Origin: Bacteroides fragilis NCTC 9343
GTDB taxonomy: Bacteria > Bacteroidota > Bacteroidia > Bacteroidales > Bacteroidaceae
Length of the DNA: 64,000 bases
Assembly (NCBI RefSeq): GCF_000025985.1
Contig: NC_003228.3
Span: 2,542,001 to 2,606,000, forward strand
Direction: 5' to 3'
Both the position numbers and the translations under genes were made by a program. Each line of letters starts with the position of its first letter. Within the stretch, counting starts at the first letter, position 1. Of this stretch, positions 29,679-45,489 are shown piece after piece. The notes below the pieces were generated by a model. The model was not told where the DNA came from, did no database searches, and worked only from the letters and a program-made list of their open reading frames with translations.

Positions 29679-31310
29679 TCATGCTAAAAATTTTGCAATA
29701 TCTTCGTCTGCTGTACTGATACCGCCAATTCCAAAATTATCGATCAGTACCTGCTTCACGTTAGGAGATAAGAATGCAGGAAGCGTCGGCCCTAAATGAA
29801 TCTTTTTCACTCCAAGTGCCAACAGAGCCAGCAGAACAATAACGGCTTTTTGTTCGTACCACGCAATGTTATATACAATCGGAAGATCATTGATGTCTTT
29901 TAGTCCGAAGACTTCCTGCAACTTCATAGCAATTATAGCCAATGAGTAACTGTCATTACACTGTCCTGCATCCAGTACACGAGGAATGCCATTAATATCC
30001 CCCAGAGGTAATTTATTATATCGGTATTTGGCGCACCCTGCTGTCAGGATTACCGTATCTGCCGGTAGCTTTTCTGCAAACTCTGTGTAGTAACTGCGAC
30101 TTTTCATTCGCCCGTCACATCCGGCCATAACAAAAAATTTACGGATAGCACCGCTTTTTACTGCTTCAACCACCTTATCGGCCAGTGCGATTACTTGCGC
30201 ATGAGCAAATCCACCTACAATCTTACCACTTTCTATTGCCACTGGTGGTTGGCAACGCCGTGCATGCTCAATAATAACGGAGAAATCTTTCTGCTTTCCG
30301 TCTTTTCGTTCGGGTATGTAGGTAGCACCTTCCAAGCCGGTTGCGCCTGTCGTATAGATGCGATCTTTATAAGTCGCATTCGGGCGTGGTGGAACAATGC
30401 AATTAGTAGTGAAGAGAATAGGACCGTTGAAACTTTCAAATTCCTCTTTCTGTTTCCACCAGGCATTACCGTAGTTTCCTACCAGGTGTTTATATTTCTT
30501 CAACTGAGGATAATAATGAGCCGGTAGCATTTCACTGTGTGTGTATATGTCGATACCGGTACCTTCAGTCTGTTGCAAAAGTTCTTCAATATCTTTCAAG
30601 TCATGTCCACTGACAAGGATACCCGGATTGTTTCGAACACCAATGTTTACTTCGGAGATTTCCGGATTTCCGTAATGGCTGGTATTGGCAGTATCGAGTT
30701 GGGCCATAGCCTGCACACCATGGTTACCCGTAGCGAGTGTGAGGGTTATCAGTTCGTCCACAGTAATATCTTCGCGGGTCAATTCAGCCAAAGCATATTG
30801 CATGAATGCAAATATCTCCGGATTCTCATATCCTAAATTATAGGCATGCTCCACATAAGCAGCCATTCCTTTGATACCATAGTGAACCAACTCCTTCAAT
30901 GATCGAATGTCTTCGTCAGAAGTTCGCAGCACCCCCACCGTTTGGGCTTTCTCTTCAAACTCTGTTTCGTCACCATACCAAGTACATTCGTCGGGCGCAT
31001 GTTCTATTGTGACTTGGTTACTTAGATCTTTCTTTAGCTCCAGTCCTTTCTTTATTTTCTTGATAATGGCGTGTTTATCAAAGTTGGCATTTGTAATGGT
31101 AGTGAACAATGCGTCAAAGATAAACTTATCTGCCCGGGCAGAAGAACGTCCATCTTTGCGTAACGCCTGATTGTAGACTGCGATTCCGCGTACTACAAAA
31201 AGCAGCAAGTCTTGCATATTGGCTACTTCGGGAGTTTTCCCGCATACTCCGCTTAAGATACAACCTGTACCTTTTGCGGTTTCCTGACACTGAAAACAGA
31301 ACATACTCAT
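29679..31310 (-). CDS. hcp: Hybrid cluster protein (hydroxylamine reductase / NO-detoxifying Hcp)
   Basis: This enzyme of 543 residues holds an iron-sulphur cluster and a hybrid Fe-S-O cluster. It reduces NO to N2O or hydroxylamine to ammonia under anaerobic conditions. The N-terminal cysteines are C-x2-C-x8-C-x5-C (residues 5, 8, 17, 23), the closer spacing found in class III Hcp proteins. The C-terminal half carries the hybrid-cluster cysteines in [29 protein letters not shown] and related segments. A Crp/Fnr operator and -7 element precede it and a Crp/Fnr gene lies next upstream, so nitrosative control is likely. No hcr reductase gene is adjacent. Confidence 0.95.
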
Positions 31311-31345
31311 AATTTTTACGTATTAATAGGTTTCTTTTCTGGATG

Positions 31346-31391
31346 CAAAGATAGGAGGAGGATTTGGGGTAATTCTGTAACCAATGTTACA
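31346..31391 (-). promoter_or_regulatory. hcp promoter with Crp/Fnr operator TGTAAC-N4-GTTACA
   Basis: The minus strand has TATCTTTG (31353-31346) as -7 element. A perfect 6-4-6 inverted repeat, TGTAACCAATGTTACA, lies at 31376-31391. Taking the start about four bases past the -7 element, the operator centre lies near -41, the class II activator position of Crp/Fnr proteins; no good -33 TTTG is present, as expected of an activator-dependent promoter. The Crp/Fnr regulator encoded 435 bases upstream is the natural candidate. Confidence 0.7.
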
Positions 31392-31825
31392 AACAAGAGA
31401 AAAAAGATTGGAAATTTTAGAGTTTGTTTAAGAGACTGTTTTAATTTTCCTCCGGAATCATTTCAGACCGTTATTTCGATAACGAGGATGTGGCAACCGA
31501 ACGTTGCTCCATAAGCGGACCTTCTGTCCGGGTGATACAGACAGGTATCAAAGATCCGGACGCTTGAGTGACTGATACAAAGAGGAGCTTTTGTACACTC
31601 TTCCTACAAAAATGCATTTCGATCTTCCATCTTCCACCTTCTATTTTGGTAGAGAAATCAAGCGCAATGGTTTGATATATAGTGTGATGTATCTATTATT
31701 CTATCTGTTTATGCCTATAAAAGCATTTTGTTTTCCTCCATGTCTTTAGCGAAAAAGGTCCGATTCTCACTCTGTTACCGTTCCATCTGTCTGATACTTA
31801 AACAGGCTTTAAATTTTGCTCAAAC
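31392..31825. other. Gene-free stretch between hcp and the Crp/Fnr gene
   Basis: About 430 bases without a convincing gene on either strand. It includes the three-hairpin block at 31469-31565 and A/T-rich filler. The part at 31600-31825 shows no feature I can support. Confidence 0.5.
31469..31565. ncRNA. Candidate structured RNA, three consecutive hairpins, strand unresolved
   Basis: Three stems follow each other: CGTTAT-TTCG-ATAACG (31469-31484), GCAAC-CGAAC-GTTGC (31493-31507), and a nested element in which GTCCGG/CCGGAC (31526-31531, 31556-31561) encloses TGATAC-AGACAG-GTATCA (31533-31550), flanked by AAGC/GCTT. A possible minus-strand promoter, TTTG (31581-31578), N21, GATCTTTG (31556-31549), would transcribe the first two stems only. 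No intrinsic terminator was found in either direction, so an RNA is a hypothesis. Confidence 0.35.
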
Positions 31826-32491
31826 TTATTGTATCAGTTGCATCATATCTTCTTTTCTCAAGATATGCACTAATTTCCTGTCCGTTTTGATCAGACCGTC
31901 ATCCTGCATATGAGCCAGCTCGCGTGCCAGAGAGGGACGAGATACTCCGAAATAATCAGCCAGTTCCTGTTGTGAGCGGTCAAGTTGTATCGGACTGTCT
32001 CCTTGTTGTTTCAACATCCGTAGCAGATAGGAAGCAAGTTTCTGCCGAATCGTCTTAAAGGACATAAAAAACAGTTTGTCAGCAAGTGTTCGGGCATAAT
32101 TGGCAGAAAGATTCATGTAGTTCTCTAAGAATTTCTCATTCCGTCGAAATAATTTCAGTACGCTTTCTTTCGGAATTTCGAAAACTTCGGTAGCTTCGTT
32201 TGCTGTAACTTCTACCGGGTAGCGATTGTCTGCACCAAATAAGAAAAGAGGGGCAATTGCACGAGGAGCAATAATATCTTCCACTTTAATCAATCTGCCC
32301 GAGTAATCGATCATTTCTCCCCGGACACTGCCTTTCAGTAATATCATCAGCCGATTGCATACATCACCTTGCCTGGCAAGAATGTCTCCTTTACGGAACA
32401 TGCGGAGGTGAGATATGATTCCGTCAAAATCACGGGAAAGCGTTTCTGGAGAGATTCCATGGAATAGGGGGTTGGTAGCGAGGTAGGTCAT
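31826..32491 (-). CDS. Crp/Fnr-family regulator, probable HcpR-like activator
   Basis: This protein of 221 residues has an N-terminal cyclic-nucleotide-type sensor domain (about 15-130, with FRKGDILARQGDVCNRLMIL) and a C-terminal winged helix (RSQQELADYFGVSRPSLARE near 170-190). The FNR N-terminal cysteine cluster is absent, so it is not an oxygen sensor of the FNR type. In Porphyromonas a regulator of this type, HcpR, activates hcp in response to nitric oxide, and here the gene lies beside hcp with a matching operator. That makes control of hcp the leading hypothesis. I see no copy of the operator in front of this gene. Confidence 0.85.
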   Translation of the reverse strand: MTYLATNPLFHGISPETLSRDFDGIISHLRMFRKGDILARQGDVCNRLMILLKGSVRGEMIDYSGRLIKVEDIIAPRAIAPLFLFGADNRYPVEVTANEATEVFEIPKESVLKLFRRNEKFLENYMNLSANYARTLADKLFFMSFKTIRQKLASYLLRMLKQQGDSPIQLDRSQQELADYFGVSRPSLARELAHMQDDGLIKTDRKLVHILRKEDMMQLIQ

Positions 32492-32606: not shown

Positions 32607-33920
32607 TTATTTAAATTTCAGAATAAATTTAGTTTCTTTGCCTTGCAGCAGAGTGATGCTTCCACCTGACAGGCGCATGATCTGACGTGAAATGCTCAAT
32701 CCGATACCACTACCTCCTTCTTTGGTGGTAAAAAAAGGAATGAATATATGATCTGCTATATCTGAAGGAATGGCAGGGCCATTATTTTTTATTTCAATCA
32801 ATATTTCTTCAGCAGCATTACATCGTCCTTGTATTTCAATCTTTCCATCGGCCTGTGTATCGATAGCTTGTATGGCATTCTTCAATAGATTAATTACTAC
32901 TTGCGAAATCAGATTTTCGTCGGCATACACAATCAGATCAGCAGGAGCAATATCTATATGGAACGTTATGTTGTCACATTTGTTTTGATGGCGTGCCAGT
33001 TCTACCATTCGGTCAATAAAAGCTTTTACATAAAATAAGGATGGTTCCGGGGTCGGGATACGGGTAAAACGGCGGTAGGATTCCACGAAGGAGAGCAGGC
33101 CTTTTCCCGTAGTACTGATTGTTTGTAAGCCCCGGCGTATTTCTTCATCCCGGGTATCGGCCAACGATAGTAGTGTTTCGCTAAGAGAGGTGATGGGAGT
33201 AACCGAATTCATGATTTCATGAGTCAATACACGTGTCAGTCGTATCCACGAATCGATTTCTTTTTCATCCAATTCACTGTTGATGTCGTTAAAAGCGAGA
33301 ATGCGCAATTGTTCTTCACGAACAGTGATGCCTGATACACGAATGGATAAATTGATTGTACCCCGTTCATTGTTGAAAATAGTTTGTATTTTATCTCCCG
33401 GACGGCAGAATTCTATTTTCTTCATCAGCTGTATATCCACTTTGTTCAGTTGGCGGATATGGGTAAACACATTTAATCCGAGCAGGCGAAGCGCTTCATT
33501 ATTTTTTTGATAAACCGCTCCATTTTCATTGAGAACGAGTACACCGGTGTTTACACAGTCCATTATCAGTTCGTAATACTTTTCTTGCTGTACCGTTTCC
33601 GACTTTACATTATATAATATGCGTCCGACCCGGTTGAGTGCACGGTTGACCTCTCGGGTCTCAGGCATTATCTGCTCTTCTGGGAAGTGAATGGCGCTGT
33701 CATTGTTCTCGAGGGCGTCAATCATGAAAAGAACTCGTTTGGTATGAATACGGTAAAGTGAAAGTTGCCACCAAATGCTGAATAGTAGCAAACAGAGGCT
33801 CAATCCCATCCAAATGAAGTCTCTGTCGGCATAAGACAGAGCCGCAGTTATGGCGAAACAGAGGCTTAGTCCGAGACGAAACCAATAGCGCTCTGTGAGT
33901 AACTTTAAATGGATTTTCAT
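32607..33920 (-). CDS. Membrane histidine kinase, NtrB/NtrY-like
   Basis: The kinase has 437 residues. Two adjoining hydrophobic segments (about 12-55) anchor it in the inner membrane with almost no periplasmic loop, so it may sense the membrane itself or a partner. A PAS-like region (about 115-210, with VNTGVLVLNENGAVYQKN) follows. The phospho-acceptor is in LTRVLTHEIMNSVTP (about 234). ATPase motifs are NLLKNAIQAI and GGSGIGLSISRQI. Its start overlaps the stop of the sigma-54 activator gene upstream by four bases, so the pair is translationally coupled and very probably cognate. Confidence 0.88.
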   Translation of the reverse strand: MKIHLKLLTERYWFRLGLSLCFAITAALSYADRDFIWMGLSLCLLLFSIWWQLSLYRIHTKRVLFMIDALENNDSAIHFPEEQIMPETREVNRALNRVGRILYNVKSETVQQEKYYELIMDCVNTGVLVLNENGAVYQKNNEALRLLGLNVFTHIRQLNKVDIQLMKKIEFCRPGDKIQTIFNNERGTINLSIRVSGITVREEQLRILAFNDINSELDEKEIDSWIRLTRVLTHEIMNSVTPITSLSETLLSLADTRDEEIRRGLQTISTTGKGLLSFVESYRRFTRIPTPEPSLFYVKAFIDRMVELARHQNKCDNITFHIDIAPADLIVYADENLISQVVINLLKNAIQAIDTQADGKIEIQGRCNAAEEILIEIKNNGPAIPSDIADHIFIPFFTTKEGGSGIGLSISRQIMRLSGGSITLLQGKETKFILKFK

Positions 33921-35257
33921 AAACCAAACTTTTTCATCTTATTATATAATGTTTGGCGGGTAATGCCTAATTGAGCGGCTACAGCCGAAAGGTTGCCTCC
34001 ACATTTGTCGAGAGCCTTGCGAATCATGGCTTTCTCCATATCTTCAAGAGTAGAGGTCTCTGTTTCCGGGTTCTCCGTTTTCTGCACTAATTGGAACATT
34101 TCAGCGGGGATGGTTTCACCATCGCTAATAATGACTGCTTTCTCAATGGAATGTTCCAATTCGCGGATATTGCCATACCAGGCATGTGCGGTCAGTTTCT
34201 CGCAAGCGGCCGGACTCAGGCTGATAGAGGCTTTGTCATACTGTTTGCAAAAGCGGGCTATAAAACGCTCAGCTAGCGGAACAATATCTTCTTTACGTTT
34301 GCGAAGTGGAGGAATTTCTACATGAATGGTGTTGATACGGTATAATAAATCTTCACGGAATAAGCCTTTGTCTACCATCTCCTGCAAGTTTCGGTTAGTT
34401 GCGCAGATTAGGCGAATGTCTACGGGGATAGATTGGTTACTACCTACACGAACTATGCTTCTCTGCTGAATGGCTGTCAGTAGCTTAGCCTGCAAATGAA
34501 AGGGAAGGTTTCCTATTTCGTCAAGAAACAGGGAACTTCGGTCTGCTGCTTCAAACTTACCTGTACGGTCGGCATGGGCGTCAGTAAAAGAACCTTTCAC
34601 ATGTCCGAACAGTTCACTCTCAAACAAGGATTCGGTGATAGCACCCATATCAACGGATATCATGCTCTCGGCAGAGCGTGGTGATAAAGCATGAATCTCA
34701 CGTGCGAGCATTTCCTTTCCCGTTCCGTTTTCACCTGTTATCAGTATATTCGCATTGGTCGTTGCTACTTTCTCAATCAACGTGTGGAGCTGCTGCATAG
34801 CACTGCTTTCACCCCAATACATGGCAGAAACCGGAGATGATTCCTTTTTGCGATTCTTTTTCTTTCCGTCTTTTGCTTGTGAAGCGGCATTTAAAAGAGT
34901 TTCCAACAGCTTTTGATTATCCCATGGTTTCACTACAAAATCAGATGCTCCCTCTTTTATACCCCGTACGGCAAGATCAATATCAGCATAAGCTGTGAAT
35001 AGTACTACCGGAAGGTCTCTGTATTGCCGTTTGATTTCATGTAACCAAAACAGACCTTCGTTACCATTATTGATTCCGGAAGTGAAATTCATGTCCAATA
35101 AGACAACTTCCGGGTTTTCTTCTCTAAGCACTGTGGACAGACTGACAGGAGAGGATAAGGTAATGACTTTCGAAAAATGATTTTTCAATAGTAATTGTAC
35201 GGCTGTCAGCACTCCTTTGTTATCGTCAACAATGATGATAGTTCCCATTTTGGTCAA
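33917..35257 (-). CDS. Sigma-54-dependent response regulator (NtrC family)
   Basis: The activator has 446 residues: receiver (D55 in LLDMNF, K110 in VVKPW), linker, AAA+ domain and Fis-type helix-turn-helix (NLSAVAAQLGITRQTLYNKM near 425-444). Walker A is TGENGTGKE (174-182) and Walker B LFLDEIG (243-249). The loop that touches sigma-54 reads GSFTDA (222-227) in place of GAFTGA; the essential F and T are kept. A -7 element (35300-35293) precedes it. The activator is placed to act on the sigma-54 promoter at 37043-37058 through the palindromes at 36951-36987, on the far side of the adjacent lipoprotein gene. Confidence 0.92.
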   Translation of the reverse strand: MTKMGTIIIVDDNKGVLTAVQLLLKNHFSKVITLSSPVSLSTVLREENPEVVLLDMNFTSGINNGNEGLFWLHEIKRQYRDLPVVLFTAYADIDLAVRGIKEGASDFVVKPWDNQKLLETLLNAASQAKDGKKKNRKKESSPVSAMYWGESSAMQQLHTLIEKVATTNANILITGENGTGKEMLAREIHALSPRSAESMISVDMGAITESLFESELFGHVKGSFTDAHADRTGKFEAADRSSLFLDEIGNLPFHLQAKLLTAIQQRSIVRVGSNQSIPVDIRLICATNRNLQEMVDKGLFREDLLYRINTIHVEIPPLRKRKEDIVPLAERFIARFCKQYDKASISLSPAACEKLTAHAWYGNIRELEHSIEKAVIISDGETIPAEMFQLVQKTENPETETSTLEDMEKAMIRKALDKCGGNLSAVAAQLGITRQTLYNKMKKFGL

Positions 35258-35385: not shown

Positions 35386-36090
35386 CTAAAGCCATTGGAA
35401 TTTAAGTCCGAAGGATAAACTCAGATAATCCCGAGCCCGCAGGTAACTGTTGGTTACGCGGCTGATCAATAACAGGTCACAGGTACTCAGCTCATAAAAG
35501 AGAGTCACAGATTTTGCAAAGAACCGGCGTTCTCTATCTATATCGTATGTCAGCCGTTGTCCCAGAAAGATGTGTGTGCGTATCTTGGACGAGAATCCGT
35601 AGTATCCTTCCGGATAACGGCTAGGCTCGTGTACCCAGAATTCGTGTCCGAAAACAGTATTAAAATAGATACCACATGCCAAAGGTTCGGTTGAAAATCC
35701 TTTCCCAAGCTCCAGGCTCCAAGGCATGTAATTTTGTTTTAAGGTCATGGTCATCTTAGCCCGATGGGAGTCATGTTTGGGTATGAAGCCGAAGAACAGA
35801 TCCGTTTCCCACTGATCTCTTTTTCCGTAATCCCAACCGGTTCCGAACGAGAACATTCCCATGTTACCCGCATATTGTATTTTGTTGTGTGTAGGTATAA
35901 GTGAATTCCATCCTTTACGAAAGCGGTGAATACGTTTGTCATATTTGCTGTATTTCGACTGTGTTGTCTGGATGGTATCTATCTTTTGTTTGGTATCGTT
36001 TTTGTCGGTTTGTGCAGCGACGTTTTCTGTGTAAAACAGCAGCGATAGTACTGCCATGCCAATAATGGAATTAAAATTCAACCACTTCAT
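35386..36090 (-). CDS. Small exported protein, probable outer-membrane beta-barrel
   Basis: With the ATG at 36090 the product is 234 residues and starts MKWLNFNSIIGMAVLSLLFY, a signal peptide ending about VAAQ; in-frame ATGs at 36096 and 36102 are alternatives and overlap the preceding gene more. After a charged linker the protein has repeated amphipathic stretches rich in Gly, Tyr, Phe and Trp and ends LSLSFGLKFQWL, an outer-membrane barrel-like tail. I recognise no family. It overlaps the 3' end of the phosphoesterase gene by about 20 bases and should share its transcript. Confidence 0.7.
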   Translation of the reverse strand: MKWLNFNSIIGMAVLSLLFYTENVAAQTDKNDTKQKIDTIQTTQSKYSKYDKRIHRFRKGWNSLIPTHNKIQYAGNMGMFSFGTGWDYGKRDQWETDLFFGFIPKHDSHRAKMTMTLKQNYMPWSLELGKGFSTEPLACGIYFNTVFGHEFWVHEPSRYPEGYYGFSSKIRTHIFLGQRLTYDIDRERRFFAKSVTLFYELSTCDLLLISRVTNSYLRARDYLSLSFGLKFQWL

Positions 36091-36880
36091 AATCATAACC
36101 ATCAGGTTTTATCGTGAATACTAAATAACTGCGATTTTTCATACAATTGCTTCCATAATACATCACGCCATCGTCAAACACATCTGACGCACTGATCCGA
36201 TGTTCGTGAGCTACAGTGCAAAATTGCAAACCGGGAAATTGGCGAACATACATTTGAAACACTTTGGCCACATTGTTATTGAACTGATCACAAAGGGGAC
36301 GGGCATGCATACAGAATACGGTTTTATTAAATTCGTCGGCACGTTCTGTGAGTTGTCTTTCAATATAGTCAAAATCAGGGATCGGTTCCGAATAATCATA
36401 TTCCATTGCGTTGGTATTGAGGCATACAAATTTCACACCTCCGGCTATGAACGAAAAGTTTGTATCGCCGAATATTTGCCGGAATGCATCTTCTCCGGTT
36501 CCCAAACAATCATGGTTTCCGATAAGTCCTACATAAGGAACCTTTAGTTTATTCATTATATCCCTTTGCCAAAGAAATTCATCGGTAAGTCCGAAGTCAC
36601 TGAAGTCGCCTCCATGAACTACAAAGTCGATGTCGTCTCTTTTGTTGACAGCGTTTACAAAGTCAACGGTTTCGTCATACCAGCGTTGCGAGTCACCCAT
36701 GGCGATAAAGCGTATAGTAGACTTTCCCAGGCATTTGGCCTCGATCTTTTGAATATTTTTCGCATTAATGTCTCTTTCTCCTTTTATGTCGACGTCATAT
36801 GGATGATAATCTATCAAGTCACATCCGGAAACTAGCAGACAACAAAGAAAGATTGCGGTAATTCCTTTTATTTGTCTCAT
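36071..36880 (-). CDS. Lipoprotein metallophosphoesterase
   Basis: The product has 269 residues. A signal peptide ends with the lipobox VSGC (C20), so it is a membrane lipoprotein facing the periplasm or surface. Calcineurin-like motifs run MGDSQ, HGGDFSD, GNHD, MHARP and VAHEHRIS, with the usual first histidine of GDxH replaced by glutamine. The metal-binding residues of the other blocks are present. The substrate could be a phospho-lipid, nucleotide or protein; sequence does not say. It is divergent from the ABC transporter operon, with a promoter 32 bases upstream of its start and the activator palindromes beyond. Confidence 0.85.
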   Translation of the reverse strand: MRQIKGITAIFLCCLLVSGCDLIDYHPYDVDIKGERDINAKNIQKIEAKCLGKSTIRFIAMGDSQRWYDETVDFVNAVNKRDDIDFVVHGGDFSDFGLTDEFLWQRDIMNKLKVPYVGLIGNHDCLGTGEDAFRQIFGDTNFSFIAGGVKFVCLNTNAMEYDYSEPIPDFDYIERQLTERADEFNKTVFCMHARPLCDQFNNNVAKVFQMYVRQFPGLQFCTVAHEHRISASDVFDDGVMYYGSNCMKNRSYLVFTIKPDGYDYEVVEF

Positions 36881-36911: not shown

Positions 36912-36942
36912 CAAAGATAAAGTTTTCTTTATGAAAAACAAA
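36912..36942 (-). promoter_or_regulatory. Promoter of the phosphoesterase gene
   Basis: The minus strand reads TTTG (36942-36939), 19 bases, TATCTTTG (36919-36912), an exact match to the Bacteroides consensus. The first activator palindrome begins nine bases beyond the -33. Confidence 0.75.
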
Positions 36943-36950
36943 ATGTTGCT

Positions 36951-36987
36951 GTCTAATTAATAGACGACTGTGTCTAATAATTAGACA
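36951..36987. promoter_or_regulatory. Two tandem palindromes, probable activator sites (UAS)
   Basis: GTCTA-ATTAA-TAGAC (36951-36965) and TGTCTAAT-A-ATTAGACA (36971-36987) share GTCTA/TAGAC arms. Their centres are 21 bp apart, two helical turns, and lie about 110 and 89 bp upstream of the expected start of the sigma-54 promoter. That is the usual layout for an NtrC-type dimer pair. Confidence 0.75.
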
Positions 36988-37042
36988 ATATTCTCGCACT
37001 ATGAATTATGTAATCCGTTGTTATATTGTTTGTTACTTCTTT

Positions 37043-37058
37043 TGGCACGCTTTGTGCA
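37043..37058 (+). promoter_or_regulatory. Sigma-54 (-24/-12) promoter of the ABC operon
   Basis: TGGCACG-CTTT-GTGCA matches the consensus TGGCACG-N4-TTGCA with one mismatch, the GG and GC elements in correct register. Transcription should start near 37068, leaving about 66 bases of leader before the first permease. Confidence 0.8.
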
Positions 37059-37134: not shown

Positions 37135-39423
37135 ATGAGACAATTGTACTACACTTTCCGAACTCTTCTCCGTGGAAGAGGTATAAATCTGACCAAAATA
37201 ATTTCGTTAACTTTAGGGCTTTTGGTCGGCATCCTGTTATTTGCCAGGGTTGCATTTGAGTTGAGCTTTGATGGTCATTATAAAGAAGTTGATAGATTGT
37301 GTGTGATTAATGCTGTTTATTACGTTGGCGGAGAGAAAGGAGAGGCACATCAGGTCGTTCTTGCTCCGGTTCCGGGTGCCATAGCCGAAGGTTTTCCTGA
37401 CGAGATCGAATCATCTACAGTTGTTCGTATCCGGTATGGTGATAACACTCTTTTTTATAATAATGTCCGTCAGTGTCCGAAAATGATTCTTTCTGATTCA
37501 CTTTTCTTCAAGACAATGGGTATCGATATTATTAGCGGCGATCCACGTGAATTGGTCAATCCTGAAACCATGTTTGTTTCACGGAGTTTTGCTCGTAGAA
37601 TATTTGGTGATGAAAGTCCGATAGGGAAAACGCTACTTTATAATCGCACTTTGCCCATGACGATAAAAGGAGTTTATGAAGACATTCCGGAGAACAGTTC
37701 TTTATATCACGAAGTTGTAATCTCTTTCTCTACTATTGAAAAGCATCATTGGGAATGTATGGGTTGGGAATGTGGAGATAGTTTTCAAGGATACATCCGA
37801 TTGAAAAATGCCTCTGATCTGGATAAAGTCAACTCGCGTATCGATCCTATAATCGAAAAACATCTTCCTTTCAGACCTGAAGAGGGATTTGCCATACGCT
37901 ATTCATTACAACCTATTCGTGGAGTTCATGCCAGCGCTCCTGTCATACAAAAGATGGTGATGATTATGTCACTGTTAGGATTGGTGATTCTTTTTATCGC
38001 TGCCATGAATTATGTGCTAATCTCTATCTCTTCACTTGCCCGACGTGCCAAAGCAATAGGCGTACATAAATGTAATGGTGCCAGTGAAAGGAATATTTTC
38101 TCGATGTTTCTCTGGGAGACGGGTATCATTATAATGATATCGCTGATACTGGTGGGTGTATTGGTTTTGAATTTCAGAGAGGATATTGAATATCTTGCTT
38201 CTGCTTCAATCGGTGCTCTTTTCACTTGGGAGACTTTATGGGTACCTATTTGTGTTATCGTGATTCTGTTTATAGTTGCCGGCATTATTCCGGGACATTT
38301 GTTTTCTTCTATTCCTGTCACCCATGTCTTCCGGAACTATACCGAAAGAAAGGGGGGATGGAAGCGTACTTTACTTTTTCTTCAGTTTACTGGAGTTACT
38401 TTTGTGCTGGGTATCTTATGTGTGGTGTTGCTTCAATATAACCGGATCACTACGAAACCGATAGGCTATAATCCGGAGGGAATCGCATTTACATATCATA
38501 ATTTTGCCGATTCGGAGTCTGCATTAGACAATCTTCGCCGACTTCCTATGGTCAGCGATGTTTCAGATAGTGAATCGAGTATCATCTCGGGATATGGAGG
38601 TTTGGCTGTTACCGATGAGAATGGGATTATTTTATTTACTACACGTTTGAATGCGTGCTTATATAACTATGTTCCGTTTATGGGTATCCGTATCAAAGAA
38701 GGAAGGAATCTCAATGGTCCCGATCAGGCATTGGTAAACGAAGAGTTTGTACGACAAATGCGTTGGACTGATGGAGCTGTCGGAAAGAAATATGAAAATT
38801 TCACCATAGTGGGAGTCATGGAGAATTTCCCGGTAAACAGCTATTATGAAGAGCAAGATCCCGTGGCATTCATCGGTCAACAGCAGATTAATAATTGCTA
38901 TCATGTCCGGCTCAAACAACCATACGAGGAAAATTTGCGATCACTTAATAAATCAATGGAAGAGATGTATCCTACAGAGGATATTGTTTTTAAGTCCCTG
39001 TCTTATAGCATTGAGGATCAATATCAGAATGTACGTCGTTTTCGTGATGCCGTAATGTTGGCTTTCGTCGTTATTTTGCTGATATCTCTGATGGGGTTGA
39101 TTGGGTATATTTCTGACGAAATACAACGTCGTAGTAAAGAAATCGCTATACGTAAAGTCAATGGGGCGGAAGTATCTCATATTTTGAACTTGCTTTCCAA
39201 AGATATTATTTGGACTGCCTCGCCTGCGGTGTTGTTTGGAACTGCCGGTGCATACTTTGTGGGCATACAATGGCTCGGACAGTTCGCTGAACGAATCAGT
39301 TTACAGGTATATTGGTTTGTACTGATAGCTATAGTTGTATTGGCTATGATTTTTTTGAGTGCAGTGATTAAGGTTTGGCATATTGCCAACGAGAATCCGG
39401 TAAAGAGTATTAAAAGTGAATAA
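37135..39423 (+). CDS. ABC transporter permease 1 (double MacB/FtsX type)
   Basis: This inner-membrane protein of 762 residues is built from two similar halves. Each has a transmembrane helix, a large periplasmic domain and a cluster of helices: TM1 is at about 18-42, a three-helix FtsX block near 280-410 follows, TM5 is near 420, and a final three-helix block ends about 750. The motif AKAIGVHKCNGAS in the first half is echoed by SKEIAIRKVNGAE in the second, showing internal duplication. Such a permease could pair with an ATPase homodimer as one polypeptide. The gene follows the sigma-54 promoter. Substrate is unknown: lipoproteins, peptides and lipids are all possible. Confidence 0.87.
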   Translation: MRQLYYTFRTLLRGRGINLTKIISLTLGLLVGILLFARVAFELSFDGHYKEVDRLCVINAVYYVGGEKGEAHQVVLAPVPGAIAEGFPDEIESSTVVRIRYGDNTLFYNNVRQCPKMILSDSLFFKTMGIDIISGDPRELVNPETMFVSRSFARRIFGDESPIGKTLLYNRTLPMTIKGVYEDIPENSSLYHEVVISFSTIEKHHWECMGWECGDSFQGYIRLKNASDLDKVNSRIDPIIEKHLPFRPEEGFAIRYSLQPIRGVHASAPVIQKMVMIMSLLGLVILFIAAMNYVLISISSLARRAKAIGVHKCNGASERNIFSMFLWETGIIIMISLILVGVLVLNFREDIEYLASASIGALFTWETLWVPICVIVILFIVAGIIPGHLFSSIPVTHVFRNYTERKGGWKRTLLFLQFTGVTFVLGILCVVLLQYNRITTKPIGYNPEGIAFTYHNFADSESALDNLRRLPMVSDVSDSESSIISGYGGLAVTDENGIILFTTRLNACLYNYVPFMGIRIKEGRNLNGPDQALVNEEFVRQMRWTDGAVGKKYENFTIVGVMENFPVNSYYEEQDPVAFIGQQQINNCYHVRLKQPYEENLRSLNKSMEEMYPTEDIVFKSLSYSIEDQYQNVRRFRDAVMLAFVVILLISLMGLIGYISDEIQRRSKEIAIRKVNGAEVSHILNLLSKDIIWTASPAVLFGTAGAYFVGIQWLGQFAERISLQVYWFVLIAIVVLAMIFLSAVIKVWHIANENPVKSIKSE

Positions 39424-39442
39424 ACAAATGAATTAAATAGAA

Positions 39443-40123
39443 ATGATTATGATACAGATTAGTGACATTAGTAAAGTGTTCCGCACTTCAGAAGTAGAAA
39501 CAGTAGCGTTGAATCATGTTAGTCTGAATGTAGAAGAAGGTGAATTTGTAGCCATTATGGGACCTTCCGGTTGTGGTAAATCTACACTTCTCAATATTTT
39601 GGGTCTTCTTGATAATCCTACAGAAGGTTCTTATAAACTTATGGGACAGGAAGTAGCTATTCTTCATGAAAAGGAACGTACCCGTGTTCGTAAGGGTAAA
39701 TTAGGATTTGTGTTCCAAAGTTTTAATCTGATAGACGAACTGAATGTGTATGAGAATGTAGAGCTTCCGCTTACTTATCTGGGTATAAAAGCCTCAGAAC
39801 GTCGTCAGATGGTAAATAATATACTTCATCGGATGAATATCAGTCATCGTGCCAAACATTTTCCCCAACAGCTTTCGGGTGGTCAGCAACAGCGTGTAGC
39901 TATTGCGCGGGCGGTGGTTACTAACCCGAAGCTGATCTTGGCCGACGAACCTACGGGCAATCTCGACTCTAAAAACGGTGCTGAAGTAATGAATCTGCTG
40001 ACGGAACTCAACCATGAAGGAACAACTATAATTATGGTGACTCACTCACAGCATGACGCTTCATTCGCTCATCGCACAGTGCATCTTTTTGATGGAAGTA
40101 TTGTCGCCAGTGTGAAAGCTTAA
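39443..40123 (+). CDS. ABC transporter ATP-binding protein 1 (LolD/MacB-like)
   Basis: This nucleotide-binding protein has 226 residues. Walker A is GPSGCGKST (40-48), the Q-loop FVFQSFN follows, the ABC signature is [10 protein letters not shown] and Walker [13 protein letters not shown], then VTHSQHD. This is the MacB/LolD/FtsE-type family that pairs with FtsX permeases. It differs from the second copy (42456-43136) at only about nine residues, although the DNA has many synonymous changes. The start could be the second in-frame ATG two codons later. The gene sits 19 bases after permease 1. Confidence 0.93.
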
Positions 40124-40136
40124 CTTAACGGCAGAT

Positions 40137-42446
40137 ATGATGAAACAATTTTATTATACTATTCAGACATTGCTACGAGGGCAGGGAAACAATATGATCA
40201 AGATAGTTTCACTGACTTTGGGATTATTCGTCGGAATATTACTTTTTTCCCGCGTAGCATTTGAATTAAACTATGATAGCTATTATCAAGAACCGGAAAA
40301 TCTTTTTCTAACTTTACGTACAGTTGTTTCGCAAGGTGAAAAGAAAGAGCCTGTTTGTAGTAATTACGGAAAACTTCCAGCAGCAATTCGTGAAAATTTT
40401 CCTGATGAAGTGGAAGATGCAACTTTGATTGACTTATTTAGTCGCAGTTCGCTTTACCATGAAGGCCAGGAAAAGAAAGATGCAATACTGGCTACTTCCC
40501 GAAGCCATATTTTTTCCACTTTGGGCGTTAAAGTACTTTCCGGAAATGTGTCTGAATTGGATAATATGGATGCACTGTTTATATCCCGTTCTCTTGCTCA
40601 AAGTCTTTTTGCAGATGCCGATCCTATTGGAAAGACAGTAATGATTAATATTGATTATCCATTGACTGTTCGAGGTGTTTTCGAAGATATTCCGGAAAAT
40701 GCCGAGTTTCGGTTTGATGGGGTCTATTCATTTGTGACTCGTGCTAATAGATTCAGAGATGAACGTGGTGGATGGCGGGGTGATATCAGCTATACATGTA
40801 TGGTTCGTTTTCGCCATCCGGAAGATGTAGAGAAAGTGGCGGCACGTATGCCTGATATGATGAAGAAGTATATACAGTATAATAAAGACTGGTTTGAAGA
40901 ATTTTCGTTTATAACTCCTTCACAGTTTCATTTGCAGAAAAAGGAATCACGTAAAATTATCAGTATTCTATCGATTCTCGGATTTGCTATTTTGCTGATT
41001 GCCGGGATGAATAATGTACTTATTTCTATTTCTTCTTTGCCACAGCGGGCCAAATCAGTAGGAGTGCATAAATGCAGCGGAGCTTCAACCGGACATATAT
41101 ATCGTATGTTCTTATGGGAATCGGCATTATTGATTCTCGTTTCTCTTTTGGGGGTTATAGTCCTTCTGCTCTATTTTAAACCGGAAATAGAAGACTTGTC
41201 TGGTGCCTCATTAGCAACCCTGTTTACATGGCGTACCCTATGGGTTCCTGCATTAGTAACCATTTTTTTATTTTTACTGATTGGCTTGCTTCCGGGAAAG
41301 CTTTTCTCTTCCATCCCTGTGACACAAGTTTTCCATCGTTTTACCGGGTATCGTGCTTCCTGGAAATATCCGTTGTTGTTTGTACAATTTACAGGAGTTG
41401 CTTTCATATTGGGATTGCTAATGATCATTCTTTTACAGTACAATCAAGTCATGAATCGAAGTATGGGCTATAAAATAGATAATTTAGTTATAGGGTGGGG
41501 GCCATTTGATTCAATGGATAAAATAGATGGCATTCTCCGGGGATTGCCTTTTATTGAAGCATCTTGTAATAGTGCTTCATTTATCTATAATGGTCATACA
41601 AGACAATCTTTTACTGATATTAACGGAAAACGTTTTATGGGGTGTATCGATTTTATAGATGAGCATTACGTCCCGATTTTAGGTTTGCAGATTTTGCAAG
41701 GGCGTAACGTTCATCAGGATGGTGAAGTATTGGTAAATGAAGAATTGCTACGGCAAGTAGGTTGGACTGATTCGCCTATAGGACGGAAACTGATGGAAGA
41801 TAACTATGAATGGGGGACTGTGGTTGGGGTAGTCAAAGATTATGTAGCACAAAGTGCGTATCAGCCACAAGCCTCTGTGGCATTGGTGAATAGCTTGGAA
41901 AGGAGATGGGAAGCCAATAAACGGAATCTGATTTTGAAAGAACCATTTAAAGAGAATCTTTCTAGAATCAGGGCTTTGATGAAAGAAACATTTCCTACGG
42001 AGGATATTCAGTTCCGTTCTGCTCGTCAGGAGGTCGATAATCTGTATCAGGTAGTACGCCGTTTCCGCAATATTGTGATTGTAGCTTCCGTTTCGATTGT
42101 AGTAATCGTATTGATGGGGTTATTCGGATTTGTGAATGATGAAGTACAACGGCGCAGTAAAGAAATTGCCATTCGTAAGGTGAATGGGGCTGAGTCGGGA
42201 AATATTATTAATCTTTTGAATCATAATATTTTCTGGATTGCTTTACCGGCTATCTTTGTTGGAATCGCTTTAGCCTATGTCGTCGGACATAAATGGGTGG
42301 AACAATTTACCGATCAGATCAATCTCAACGCAGGGCATTTTCTTTTGCTTCTCTTATTAATATTATTATTGATTTTAGGAAGTGTCACCGGAAAATCTTG
42401 GCGCATTGCTAACGAAAATCCGGTAAACAGTATTAAGAACGAGTAA
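40137..42446 (+). CDS. ABC transporter permease 2 (double MacB/FtsX type)
   Basis: The permease has 769 residues with the same two-half plan as permease 1, 13 bases after the first ATPase gene. The second methionine (40140) is an equally good start. Repeat motifs are AKSVGVHKCSGAS and SKEIAIRKVNGAE. By eye it is closest to permease 3: the N-terminal TLLRGQGNNMIKIVSLTLGL and most periplasmic segments line up without gaps. It ends IANENPVNSIKNE, almost the same tail as the other three. Confidence 0.87.
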   Translation: MMKQFYYTIQTLLRGQGNNMIKIVSLTLGLFVGILLFSRVAFELNYDSYYQEPENLFLTLRTVVSQGEKKEPVCSNYGKLPAAIRENFPDEVEDATLIDLFSRSSLYHEGQEKKDAILATSRSHIFSTLGVKVLSGNVSELDNMDALFISRSLAQSLFADADPIGKTVMINIDYPLTVRGVFEDIPENAEFRFDGVYSFVTRANRFRDERGGWRGDISYTCMVRFRHPEDVEKVAARMPDMMKKYIQYNKDWFEEFSFITPSQFHLQKKESRKIISILSILGFAILLIAGMNNVLISISSLPQRAKSVGVHKCSGASTGHIYRMFLWESALLILVSLLGVIVLLLYFKPEIEDLSGASLATLFTWRTLWVPALVTIFLFLLIGLLPGKLFSSIPVTQVFHRFTGYRASWKYPLLFVQFTGVAFILGLLMIILLQYNQVMNRSMGYKIDNLVIGWGPFDSMDKIDGILRGLPFIEASCNSASFIYNGHTRQSFTDINGKRFMGCIDFIDEHYVPILGLQILQGRNVHQDGEVLVNEELLRQVGWTDSPIGRKLMEDNYEWGTVVGVVKDYVAQSAYQPQASVALVNSLERRWEANKRNLILKEPFKENLSRIRALMKETFPTEDIQFRSARQEVDNLYQVVRRFRNIVIVASVSIVVIVLMGLFGFVNDEVQRRSKEIAIRKVNGAESGNIINLLNHNIFWIALPAIFVGIALAYVVGHKWVEQFTDQINLNAGHFLLLLLLILLLILGSVTGKSWRIANENPVNSIKNE

Positions 42447-42455
42447 TTAAAAATA

Positions 42456-43136
42456 ATGATTATGATAGAAATTAATGACATTAGTAAAGTGTTTCGTACT
42501 TCAGAAGTAGAAACCGTAGCGTTAAATCATGTAAGCCTGAATGTAGAAGAAGGTGAATTTGTGGCCATTATGGGGCCTTCCGGTTGTGGAAAGTCTACTT
42601 TACTCAATATCCTGGGACTTCTCGATAATCCTACGGAGGGTTCTTATAAACTCATAGGACAGGAGGTAGCCGATCTTCATGAAAAGGAACGTACCCGTGT
42701 GCGTAAAGGGAAGTTGGGGTTCGTATTCCAAAGTTTCAATCTGATAGATGAATTGAATGTTTATGAAAATGTGGAACTTCCGCTTACTTATTTAAATATC
42801 AAGGCTTCGGAACGCCGCCGAATGGTAGACAATATTCTTCATCGGATGAATATTAGCCATCGTGCCAAACACTTTCCCCAACAGCTTTCGGGTGGGCAGC
42901 AACAACGTGTGGCCATAGCCCGCGCTGTGGTTACCAATCCAAAACTGATTCTTGCCGATGAGCCTACAGGAAATCTTGATTCTAAAAATGGTGCAGAAGT
43001 GATGAATCTGTTGACAGAGCTGAATCGTGAAGGTACAACGATAATTATGGTTACGCACTCTCAGCACGATGCTTCGTTTGCACATCGTACGATACATCTG
43101 TTCGATGGTAGCATAGTGGCCAGTGTGAAAGCTTAA
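42456..43136 (+). CDS. ABC transporter ATP-binding protein 2 (LolD/MacB-like)
   Basis: This is the second 226-residue ATPase, nearly identical to the first, with all motifs intact ([38 protein letters not shown]). It lies ten bases after permease 2 and 16 before permease 3. Differences include Q/E and S/N in the first residues and a few in the helical domain near 110-130. The near identity suggests both ATPases serve the same set of permeases. Confidence 0.93.
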   Translation: MIMIEINDISKVFRTSEVETVALNHVSLNVEEGEFVAIMGPSGCGKSTLLNILGLLDNPTEGSYKLIGQEVADLHEKERTRVRKGKLGFVFQSFNLIDELNVYENVELPLTYLNIKASERRRMVDNILHRMNISHRAKHFPQQLSGGQQQRVAIARAVVTNPKLILADEPTGNLDSKNGAEVMNLLTELNREGTTIIMVTHSQHDASFAHRTIHLFDGSIVASVKA

Positions 43137-43152
43137 CCAATAAAAAAACATA

Positions 43153-45459
43153 ATGAAACAACTCTACTATACCATTCAAACATTACTACGGGGACGTGGA
43201 AGTAATGTAATTAAAGTAATTTCACTGACACTGGGATTGCTGGTAGGAATTCTGCTGTTTGCTCGCGTTGCATTCGAGCTGAATTATGATAGTTATTATT
43301 CGGAACCGGAGAATTTGTGTATAACTTTACGTACGGGTATTTCGGATGGGATAAAAAAAGAGCCGAATATCGATAACTATGGTAAGTTAGCAGAGGCCAT
43401 TCGCGAAAATTTCCCAGATGAAGTAGAAGATGCGACCGTGCTTGATCTCTTTAGCCAGAGTCCTCTCTATCATGAGGGTAAGAAGATGGAACATGTAATC
43501 TTAGCAACCTCTAAAAGTCACGTTTTTTCTACTTTAGGTATTAAAGTCTTACTCGGAGATGTTTCCCAACTCGACAGAGTGGATGTTATTTTTATCTCCC
43601 GTTCACTTGCCCGGCGTTTGTTTGCAGACGCAAATCCGATCGGAAAAACAATCAATATTGAAATTGATTATCCGTTGACTGTGCAAGGAGTTTTTGAGGA
43701 TATTCCGGAAAATACCGAATTTCATTTTGACGGAGTTTATTCCTTCGATACCCGATCTAAGCAATATGGTTCTGAACGTGGTGGCTGGGGATATGATTCC
43801 AGTTATCATTGTATGGTTCGTTTCCGCCATCCCGATGAAAGAGAGAAAGTGGAGGTACGTATGCCTGAAATGCTGAAAAAGTATATACACAACTATAAGG
43901 GTCAATCAGAGGAGTATTCGTTTATGACTCCTTCACAGTATCATTTGCAAAAACCGGAATCTCGTAAAATAGTTATGATTCTTTCAATACTCGGATTTGC
44001 CATCTTGTTGGTTGCCGGCATGAATAATGTCTTGATTTCTGTTTCATCATTGGCTCAACGAGCTAAGTCTGTTGGCATACATAAGTGTAATGGTGCTTCT
44101 GATGGGCATATCTATCGTATGTTTCTGTATGAATCAGCACTATTGATATTGCTTTCTTTATTGTTCGTGACAGTCCTGTTATTCACTTTTAAGTTGGAGA
44201 TAGAAGATCTTTCCGGAGCTTCATTAAAGGCTTTATTTACATGGCAAACTCTGTGGGTACCGATTTTGGTTTCTTTGGTTTTATTTCTGGTCATCGGACT
44301 ATTTCCGGGCAAGTTGTTTGCCGCTATTCCTGTGACACAAGTTTTCCATCGTTTTACTGCACATCGTTTTGTCTGGAAGCGATCATTGCTTTTTATACAG
44401 TTTGCGGGAATTGCATTTATTTTAGGCCTGTTGATGGTTATTCTTTTACAGTATCATCAGGTGATGACCCGTGACATGGGATATAAGGTCGATAATTTGG
44501 CAGTTGGGTGGTCGCCATATAGAGAAATTGATAAAATGGACGGTATTCTCCGAGGACTGCCCATAGTTGAGGAGTTTTGTAATGCAAGTACGATTATTTA
44601 TGGTGGCTACATGGGTCAACCTTACACAGATGCACATGGGAAGGAATTTATGGGACGTATCGAATTTGTTGATGAACATTATGTTCCGGTTATGGGACTT
44701 CAGATTATAAAAGGCAGGAATATCCAGCAAGATAAAGAGATCTTGATTAATGAAGAGATGGTTCGTCAAATTGGTTGGACGGATAGTCCCATCGGTAAGA
44801 ATCTGGAAGATGGCAAAAATAACTTTGGTACGATTGTCGGAGTTGTGAAAGACTATGTTGTACAAAGTGCGTACATGCCACAGGCTCCTGTAGCACTGAT
44901 GAGTAATTTGGAATGGATGAATGTGCTTAATAAACGGAATATTATTTTGAAAGAACCTTTTGGTGAGAACCTGGCTAAGATTAACACATTGATGAAAGAG
45001 GCTTTTCCGACAGTAGATATTGTATTCCGTTCTGCCCGTCAGGAGATTGATAAGCAATATCAAGAGGTCCGCCGTTTCCGTAATGTCGTGATTATAGCTT
45101 CTATTGCTATCCTGTTGATTGCTTTGATGGGACTGTTCGGCTTTGTAAATGATGAAATTCAACGTCGTAGCAAAGAAATTGCCATTCGTAAAGTGAACGG
45201 TGCCGAAGTGCCGGATATTCTTCGTTTGGTTTCCGGGAATATTTTCTGGACGGCACTAAGTGCTGTTCTGGTCGGAATAGTATTTGCATATATTGTAAGT
45301 AATAAATGGCTGGAACAGTTTTCTGACCGGGTATCAGTCAATGGGGGACATTTTCTTGTCGTGATCATAATTATCTTGTTGTTGATCATAGGAAGTGTCA
45401 TCGGGAGGTCCTGGAATGTGGCTAATGAGAATCCGGTGAACAGTATCAAGAACGAATAG
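43153..45459 (+). CDS. ABC transporter permease 3 (double MacB/FtsX type)
   Basis: The permease has 768 residues and the same topology, with repeat motifs AKSVGIHKCNGAS and SKEIAIRKVNGAE. It aligns with permease 2 along its whole length; the periplasmic domains differ more than the membrane parts. Together with its preceding ATPase it looks like a tandem copy of the permease 1/ATPase or permease 2/ATPase unit. The gene is followed by permease 4 after 30 bases without an intervening ATPase. Confidence 0.87.
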   Translation: MKQLYYTIQTLLRGRGSNVIKVISLTLGLLVGILLFARVAFELNYDSYYSEPENLCITLRTGISDGIKKEPNIDNYGKLAEAIRENFPDEVEDATVLDLFSQSPLYHEGKKMEHVILATSKSHVFSTLGIKVLLGDVSQLDRVDVIFISRSLARRLFADANPIGKTINIEIDYPLTVQGVFEDIPENTEFHFDGVYSFDTRSKQYGSERGGWGYDSSYHCMVRFRHPDEREKVEVRMPEMLKKYIHNYKGQSEEYSFMTPSQYHLQKPESRKIVMILSILGFAILLVAGMNNVLISVSSLAQRAKSVGIHKCNGASDGHIYRMFLYESALLILLSLLFVTVLLFTFKLEIEDLSGASLKALFTWQTLWVPILVSLVLFLVIGLFPGKLFAAIPVTQVFHRFTAHRFVWKRSLLFIQFAGIAFILGLLMVILLQYHQVMTRDMGYKVDNLAVGWSPYREIDKMDGILRGLPIVEEFCNASTIIYGGYMGQPYTDAHGKEFMGRIEFVDEHYVPVMGLQIIKGRNIQQDKEILINEEMVRQIGWTDSPIGKNLEDGKNNFGTIVGVVKDYVVQSAYMPQAPVALMSNLEWMNVLNKRNIILKEPFGENLAKINTLMKEAFPTVDIVFRSARQEIDKQYQEVRRFRNVVIIASIAILLIALMGLFGFVNDEIQRRSKEIAIRKVNGAEVPDILRLVSGNIFWTALSAVLVGIVFAYIVSNKWLEQFSDRVSVNGGHFLVVIIIILLLIIGSVIGRSWNVANENPVNSIKNE

Positions 45460-45489
45460 TGATGATTTAATATGTAAAAAGACAAAACA

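Follow-up and report, generated by a model that had tools for sequence, protein, structure and literature searches.

Organization of the locus

The window analysed here is a stretch of 64,000 nucleotides of Bacteroides fragilis NCTC 9343 (G000:C1:2542001-2606000, in a genome of 5,241,700 bases on two contigs), and coordinates given without a locus handle refer to it. The plus strand carries the array of six ABC transporter genes that an earlier note on this DNA had described (37135-47784), which are separated by gaps of 9–30 bp and encode permease 1 (37135-39423), ATPase 1 (39443-40123), permease 2 (40137-42446), ATPase 2 (42456-43136), permease 3 (43153-45459) and permease 4 (45490-47784). 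Both the MacB_PCD and the FtsX domains score above cut-off in all four permeases, which identifies them as MacB-type ABC permeases. The operon (37135-47784) includes neither an HlyD adaptor nor an outer-membrane gene and is thus not tripartite in its gene content, unlike the arrays of two related loci (L190, L260). The best NCBIfam match of ATPase 1 is DarD, and its assignment as a darobactin exporter was rejected at a score of 283 bits, below the cut-off of 375.

Divergently from the exporter genes, the minus strand encodes a calcineurin-like phosphoesterase with a lipoprotein-like N-terminus (36071-36880), an unnamed protein of 238 amino acids with a signal-like N-terminus (35386-36102), for which no Pfam or NCBIfam family was found at E ≤ 0.001, a response regulator (33917-35257) and a sensor kinase (32607-33920). 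The phosphoesterase and the 238-residue protein (35386-36880) accompany the regulator in many relatives. Just past the kinase, a gene for a CRP/FNR-family regulator adjoins a hybrid-cluster-protein (Prismane) gene (29679-32491), a gene order that is kept in several relatives.

The sigma-54 activator and kinase which had been placed on the strand opposite to the exporter are indeed encoded there. The regulator contains receiver, AAA and Fis HTH domains (PF00072, PF00158 and PF02954, all above cut-off) and is therefore of the NtrC type. All 25 NCBIfam models shown score below their cut-offs. The L1 loop of the regulator reads GSFTDA, and the canonical GAFTGA is not found in this protein. The same holds for its relatives, since among the 79 regulator frames of the 80 named loci (among the matches listed) the loop is GAFTDA in 47 and GSFTDA in 32. 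The conservation of the associated promoters suggests that this form of the loop is functional. The kinase has a hydrophobic N-terminus (approximately residues 13–56) that leaves no room for a periplasmic domain. Simple hydropathy, on which all transmembrane calls rest, detects one segment in the window kinase (residues 33–56) and adds a second (13–32) in a close relative (L201); by this method, 5 of 64 kinase frames have no segment and some have a single merged one.

Candidate promoter and upstream sites

The intergenic region contains a sigma-54-type −24/−12 element, TGGCACGCTTTGTGCA (37043-37058, plus strand), in which GG and GC are 10 bp apart, the canonical spacing of such promoters. This is the single exact match to TGGCACG-N4-GTGCA within the window and, as reported earlier, it ends 77 bp before the start of the first permease gene (37135). 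By counting the C of the −12 GC as position −12, transcription is predicted to start at approximately 37069 on the plus strand. The genome encodes one RpoN (a single PF04552 locus, E = 1.4e-50). The element by itself is weak evidence, because at ≤2 mismatches the pattern has five matches in the window against 2.7 expected, and 11 of 100 shuffles reach five.

Two candidate activator palindromes of 17 bp lie upstream of this element on the plus strand: a distal one, TGTCTAATTAATAGACG (36950-36966, centre approximately −111), which deviates from the consensus at two positions, in the right arm and at the last base, and a proximal one, TGTCTAATAATTAGACA (36971-36987, centre approximately −90), which is perfect. 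Their starts, 36950 and 36971, are 21 bp apart. The pair agrees with the earlier note, apart from the centres, which that note gave as about −89 and −110, and from the start of the first palindrome, here 36950. At ≤3 mismatches the palindrome pattern has three matches in the window against 0.46 expected, so that within the window alone the palindromes are remarkable and the −24/−12 element is not. The third match, at 31788 (3 mismatches), was regarded as a chance occurrence, as was a 2-mismatch site elsewhere in the genome (G000:3147111, L071), where no sigma-54 element lies between the genes.

Conservation of the module and its geometry

The conservation of this arrangement was assessed in 80 named loci (among the matches listed), which were picked solely by regulator similarity, span Bacteroides, Phocaeicola, Parabacteroides, Tannerella and others, and from which the absence of a species is uninformative. 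The palindrome pair together with the −24/−12 element was found in 41 of these 80 loci, as compared with 0/80 when the loci were reversed and 0/80 in each of three shuffles. When the gap between proximal palindrome and element was left free (20–150 bp), all 41 modules still fell at 53 (6), 54 (13) or 55 bp (22). Among the same 80 listed loci, the module is present in 38 of the 45 that contain a transporter homologue and in 3 of the 35 that do not. Six loci (L232, L240, L253, L267, L268 and L269) combine a regulator and a transporter homologue with no module at the threshold used, and the module of L205 falls just under it.

A wider collection of 94 modules, most of them from loci picked by palindrome or regulator, was thinned to 62 by sequence identity. 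In these, the palindromes are spaced by 21 (49 modules), 22 (12) or 23 bp (1), where the module definition allowed 19–25, and the distance from the proximal palindrome to the −24 element is 53–55 bp in 62/62, where 50–58 was allowed. The GG of the −24 element is invariant, while the G of the −12 element is kept in 61 and its C in 44 of the 62. The first homologous gene downstream of the element encodes a permease in 39 modules, an ATPase in 6 and an outer-membrane efflux protein in 16; such a gene is thus found in 61/62, with none in the remaining one, an assignment confined to the families included in the query. Three loci, L190, L260 and L161, start with the outer-membrane efflux gene, and the first two of them continue with HlyD.

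The sites themselves can also be used to retrieve the module. The palindrome at ≤1 mismatch occurs in 32 of 60 genus genomes, whereas the backward-read control occurs in 6, and at 25 of the 29 palindrome loci fetched a second palindrome lies 21–22 bp away; the other four (L077, L083, L085 and L094) have a single palindrome at ≤3 mismatches. A search of other Bacteroides genomes for the sites, which the earlier note had proposed, detected a half-site and an element separated by 52–56 bp in 58 of 158 genus genomes, a few of which look like chance, compared with 5 of 158 for the reversed pattern. Elements were further scored in 46 loci, made up of the window, the 29 palindrome loci, three regulator loci and 13 loci that had been selected by context from the 26 of the order. 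An element scoring at least 11 was found in 39, in 38 of these at 53–55 bp from the palindrome, and scores on the opposite side peaked at 11 over all loci. L084 (G007, 1205-1538) departs from this ruler: its palindromes are normally spaced, but no good sigma-54 element lies closer than 280 bp.

Among 393 genomes of the order, a search with the palindrome by itself gave no enrichment (28 genomes versus 33 for the reversed pattern, a control counted by hand), and a regulator or kinase homologue adjoins 6 of the 26 order palindrome loci. Since the motif alone is not enriched, the case beyond the genus rests on loci with regulator context. Pair, spacing and element are kept in orthologous loci of Bacteroides, Phocaeicola and Parabacteroides, a conservation on which the earlier note had made its proposal depend.

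The 55-bp spacer of the window contains a further site that was absent from the earlier note. It lies at 37011-37023 on the minus strand, reads TAATCCGTTGTTA on the plus strand and differs at one position from YAANNNNTTGATW, which we take to be the complement of the IHF consensus. At ≤1 mismatch, YAANNNNTTGATW is present in under half of the module spacers (28/62), against a shuffle mean of 4.7 and maximum of 10, and 25 of these 28 matches begin 22–23 bp past the palindrome. The other orientation of the consensus occurs in 16/62 spacers (shuffle mean 3.9, maximum 10) with more scattered offsets, and a reversed control in 5/62 (mean 4.2). This IHF-like sequence is probably a DNA-bending site and would constitute an additional part of the switch.

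Co-occurrence of regulator and palindrome

Among 60 genus genomes, 31 contain both the regulator (counted as present at ≥57 % identity) and the palindrome, 1 the palindrome only, 7 the regulator only and 21 neither, an association with a Fisher p of 3e-9, uncorrected for shared ancestry. Three of the seven regulator-only genomes (G054, G055 and G034) have modules with variant palindromes, and a fourth (G024) has a half-site with an element. In five genomes (G042, G057, G047, G040 and G007), no palindrome was found in the stretch around the regulator, the two being on separate contigs or approximately 190–360 kb apart. The regulator–kinase pair stands alone, with no palindrome beside it, in 11 of 41 loci (L166-168, 171, 173, 176, 179, 180, 182, 184 and 185), and some of the genomes concerned carry palindromes elsewhere, beside an exporter. 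Because these unlinked palindromes adjoin an exporter, the association points to a regulator that acts in trans rather than to simple hitch-hiking.

The sole palindrome-only genome of the 60 is G039. At its locus (L083, 1134-2936) the regulator gene has been lost, only the final ~90 residues of the kinase remain, and the former position of the regulator gene is taken by a single palindrome with no good sigma-54 element.

Candidate paralogous circuits in the same genome

The B. fragilis genome yields 15 matches to the sigma-54 activator domain, ten of them strong. Three of these ten activators (L065, L067 and L070) are, like the window regulator, divergent from operons with MacB-type permeases, the L070-side operon starting with two DUF4933 genes. 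The loop carries D in all four exporter-linked activators (GAFTDA or GSFTDA), whereas it carries G in the five other activators read (GAFTGA or GSFTGA); the tenth (L018, G000:C1:1719048-1719548) contains an in-frame TAG. In the three paralogue kinases and in that of L201, the short hydrophobic N-terminus is resolved into at least two overlapping segments with almost no loop.

Each of the three paralogous activators has its own palindrome pair, with a pair spacing of 21 (L065), 23 (L067) and 21 bp (L070). The distance from the proximal centre to the −24 element, which is 64 bp in the window, amounts to 63.5 bp in 9/10 loci of the L065 group, 62–63 bp in 4/7 of the L067 group and 62.5 bp in 5/6 of the L070 group, all measured with palindrome patterns that had been defined by eye on these very loci. 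The exceptions are L300 in the L065 group, in which this value was not found; L284, with only a weak match on the other strand, and L285 and L286, with none, in the L067 group; and L293 in the L070 group, where the script chose a different, higher-scoring element. The activator of L067, whose recognition helix (RQTLYNK) is nearly identical to that of the window regulator, has similar sites (TGTCCAAT) with nearly the same half-site, and the two paralogues with other recognition helices have other sites.

Two further features of these circuits were observed. An extra lone palindrome of the TGTCCAATAATTAGACG type lies near the activator start at L067 (8790-8806) and, by eye, at L281-L286, which possibly reflects autoregulation. 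At L065 (8991-9006) and at L287-L292, L294 and L295, the −12 part reads TTTGAA, that is GG-N10-GA rather than GC, in 9/9 loci of this group that yielded the module.

Proposed mechanism and alternative explanations

The gene order, the sites and their comparative conservation suggest that the exporter operon is most probably driven by a sigma-54 promoter with a tandem enhancer bound by the NtrC-type regulator. On stimulation, the membrane-bound kinase would phosphorylate the regulator, two dimers of which may occupy the 17-bp palindromes centred near −90 and −111. The spacing of these sites would place the dimers on one face of the helix, where they could form the active AAA+ ring. Once the 55-bp spacer had been bent at the conserved site by an IHF/HU-type protein, the ring would contact RNA polymerase–sigma-54 at 37043-37058 and melt the promoter, which would switch on four MacB-type permeases and two ATPases as one operon.

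That chance alone brought an AT-rich palindrome next to a sigma-54-like string is hardly conceivable: single −24/−12 matches are common in the genome (189 at ≤1 mismatch, compared with 123 for the reversed pattern), but all of the comparative evidence on conservation refutes such an assembly. Palindromes of such a length often serve as operators, and the half-sites TGTCTAAT-N-ATTAGACA could belong to another factor, such as a repressor, with an incidental link to the regulator. The retention of the palindrome in G039 after the loss of the regulator gene would fit such an operator, but this relic lacks a good sigma-54 element, and the fixed distance of 53–55 bp to the −24/−12 element, the in-trans co-occurrence with the regulator and the nearly identical geometry of three paralogous sigma-54 activators with different palindromes make another factor very improbable.

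Two other proposals concern the reach of the circuit and its signal rather than the existence of the promoter. The palindromes might work both ways, the regulator also controlling the divergent phosphoesterase–orf238–regulator–kinase genes. In B. fragilis the distal palindrome is centred ~52 bp before a phosphoesterase-side start predicted from a minus-strand promoter, TTTTG/TATCTTTG (36939-36943 and 36912-36919), judged by what we assume to be the relevant consensus, and in 55/62 modules, many of which come from loci picked by the regulator, the closest divergent gene with homology is that of the regulator or of the phosphoesterase. Nevertheless, the distance from the palindrome ranges from 61 to 1141 bp to the phosphoesterase (n=20) and from 57 to 3970 bp to the regulator gene (n=35), whereas that to the sigma-54 element is fixed; in L172 and L174 the phosphoesterase has been relocated while the sites remain with the exporter; and in the 11 loci with a lone regulator–kinase pair the sites are not adjacent to the pair. 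Because the distances to the divergent genes vary, two-way control is not a conserved property; we consider it unlikely, and the earlier suggestion of an action on the phosphoesterase finds no comparative support, although control of this gene in B. fragilis itself is possible. As regards the signal, the transporter and the kinase may form a sensing complex, in which the kinase reads exporter activity and sigma-54 replaces an OmpR-type output. This analogy to the Bce modules draws on the short, almost loop-free hydrophobic N-termini (by simple hydropathy) of the window kinase, its three paralogues and relatives, and on the position of all four kinases beside operons with MacB-type permeases; against it, kinase–regulator pairs stand alone in the 11 of 41 loci mentioned above, and kinases of such a family may sense otherwise in the cytoplasm or membrane, so that a sensing complex can be offered only tentatively.

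Relation to known systems

NtrC-, AtoC- and ZraR-type systems have a general enhancer architecture, and the sigma-54-driven exporter switch proposed here resembles it in the receiver–AAA–Fis HTH regulator, the paired dyads upstream, the IHF-like site and the GG-N10-GC promoter. It differs in the enhancer–promoter distance, which is kept within 2 bp across genera, in the GAFTDA/GSFTDA loop and in its MacB-type exporter target. The Bce modules of Firmicutes (BceRS-BceAB) comprise a kinase without an extracellular domain beside an FtsX-superfamily ABC permease, and gene order and simple hydropathy point to the same combination at the B. fragilis locus, a kinase lacking an extracellular sensor domain beside an FtsX-type permease, with one of the two expected helices of the window kinase under the script threshold. 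In contrast to Bce, the regulator of this locus is NtrC-type rather than OmpR-type, its permeases carry MacB_PCD and an outer-membrane efflux gene comes first in 16/62 modules. Permeases with MacB_PCD and FtsX and a LolD/MacB-like ATPase are shared with MacAB-TolC, from which the window operon differs by having no adaptor or outer-membrane gene and by its multiplied permeases and ATPases. As to DarBCD, the likeness is the ATPase nearest to DarD, and the difference is its score under the cut-off.

Taken together with the paralogues, these likenesses raise the possibility, on balance a doubtful one, that Bacteroides has a family of parallel sigma-54 circuits with one ruler and several half-site codes (TGTCTAAT, CGTCCAAT, GTGCG and TGTACG), in which each kinase would sense how active its own exporter is, so that the family would be the sigma-54 equivalent of the Bce detoxification modules. 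Such a family would comprise the four GAFTDA/GSFTDA activators, each paired with a kinase devoid of a periplasmic domain and each governing an operon with MacB-type permeases, with palindrome pairs 21–23 bp apart and the proximal centre 62–64 bp before the −24 element.

The bare link between sigma-54 and FtsX-type permeases in Bacteroidia is already in print (PMC12316311). That study of 2025, in the portion covered here, reported the FtsX-like permease COG0577 to be enriched in Bacteroidia sigma-54 regulons and called this the first such evidence; its analysis is statistical and performed per class, and its activator pipeline retained only GAFTGA proteins, a criterion that, as worded, would exclude all four activators linked to exporters here. 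The same portion gives no activator or palindromes for the COG0577 link. According to the covered part of PMC9723704, sigma-54-type promoters in Flavobacterium psychrophilum precede protein quality-control, envelope-stress and gliding genes. The earlier statement that sigma-54 regulons are poorly charted therefore holds in part: the permease link had been described in PMC12316311, and, judging by the portions of the literature searched, Bacteroidales are otherwise little charted. The cognate activator, palindromes, fixed ruler, IHF-like site and parallel circuits were not found in the open-licence literature searched, and neither the locus nor its activator or palindromes are described in the covered portions of PMC12316311, PMC9723704, PMC10865816, PMC10434189 and PMC7366714.

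Implications

At this locus an activator, its sites, a promoter and a target can all be proposed from sequence and are directly testable. The fixed geometry provides a search rule for more sigma-54 circuits in the phylum, while screens that require GAFTGA would miss activators of the GAFTDA/GSFTDA kind. The circuit is likely to prove a stress-induced exporter system in a gut commensal.
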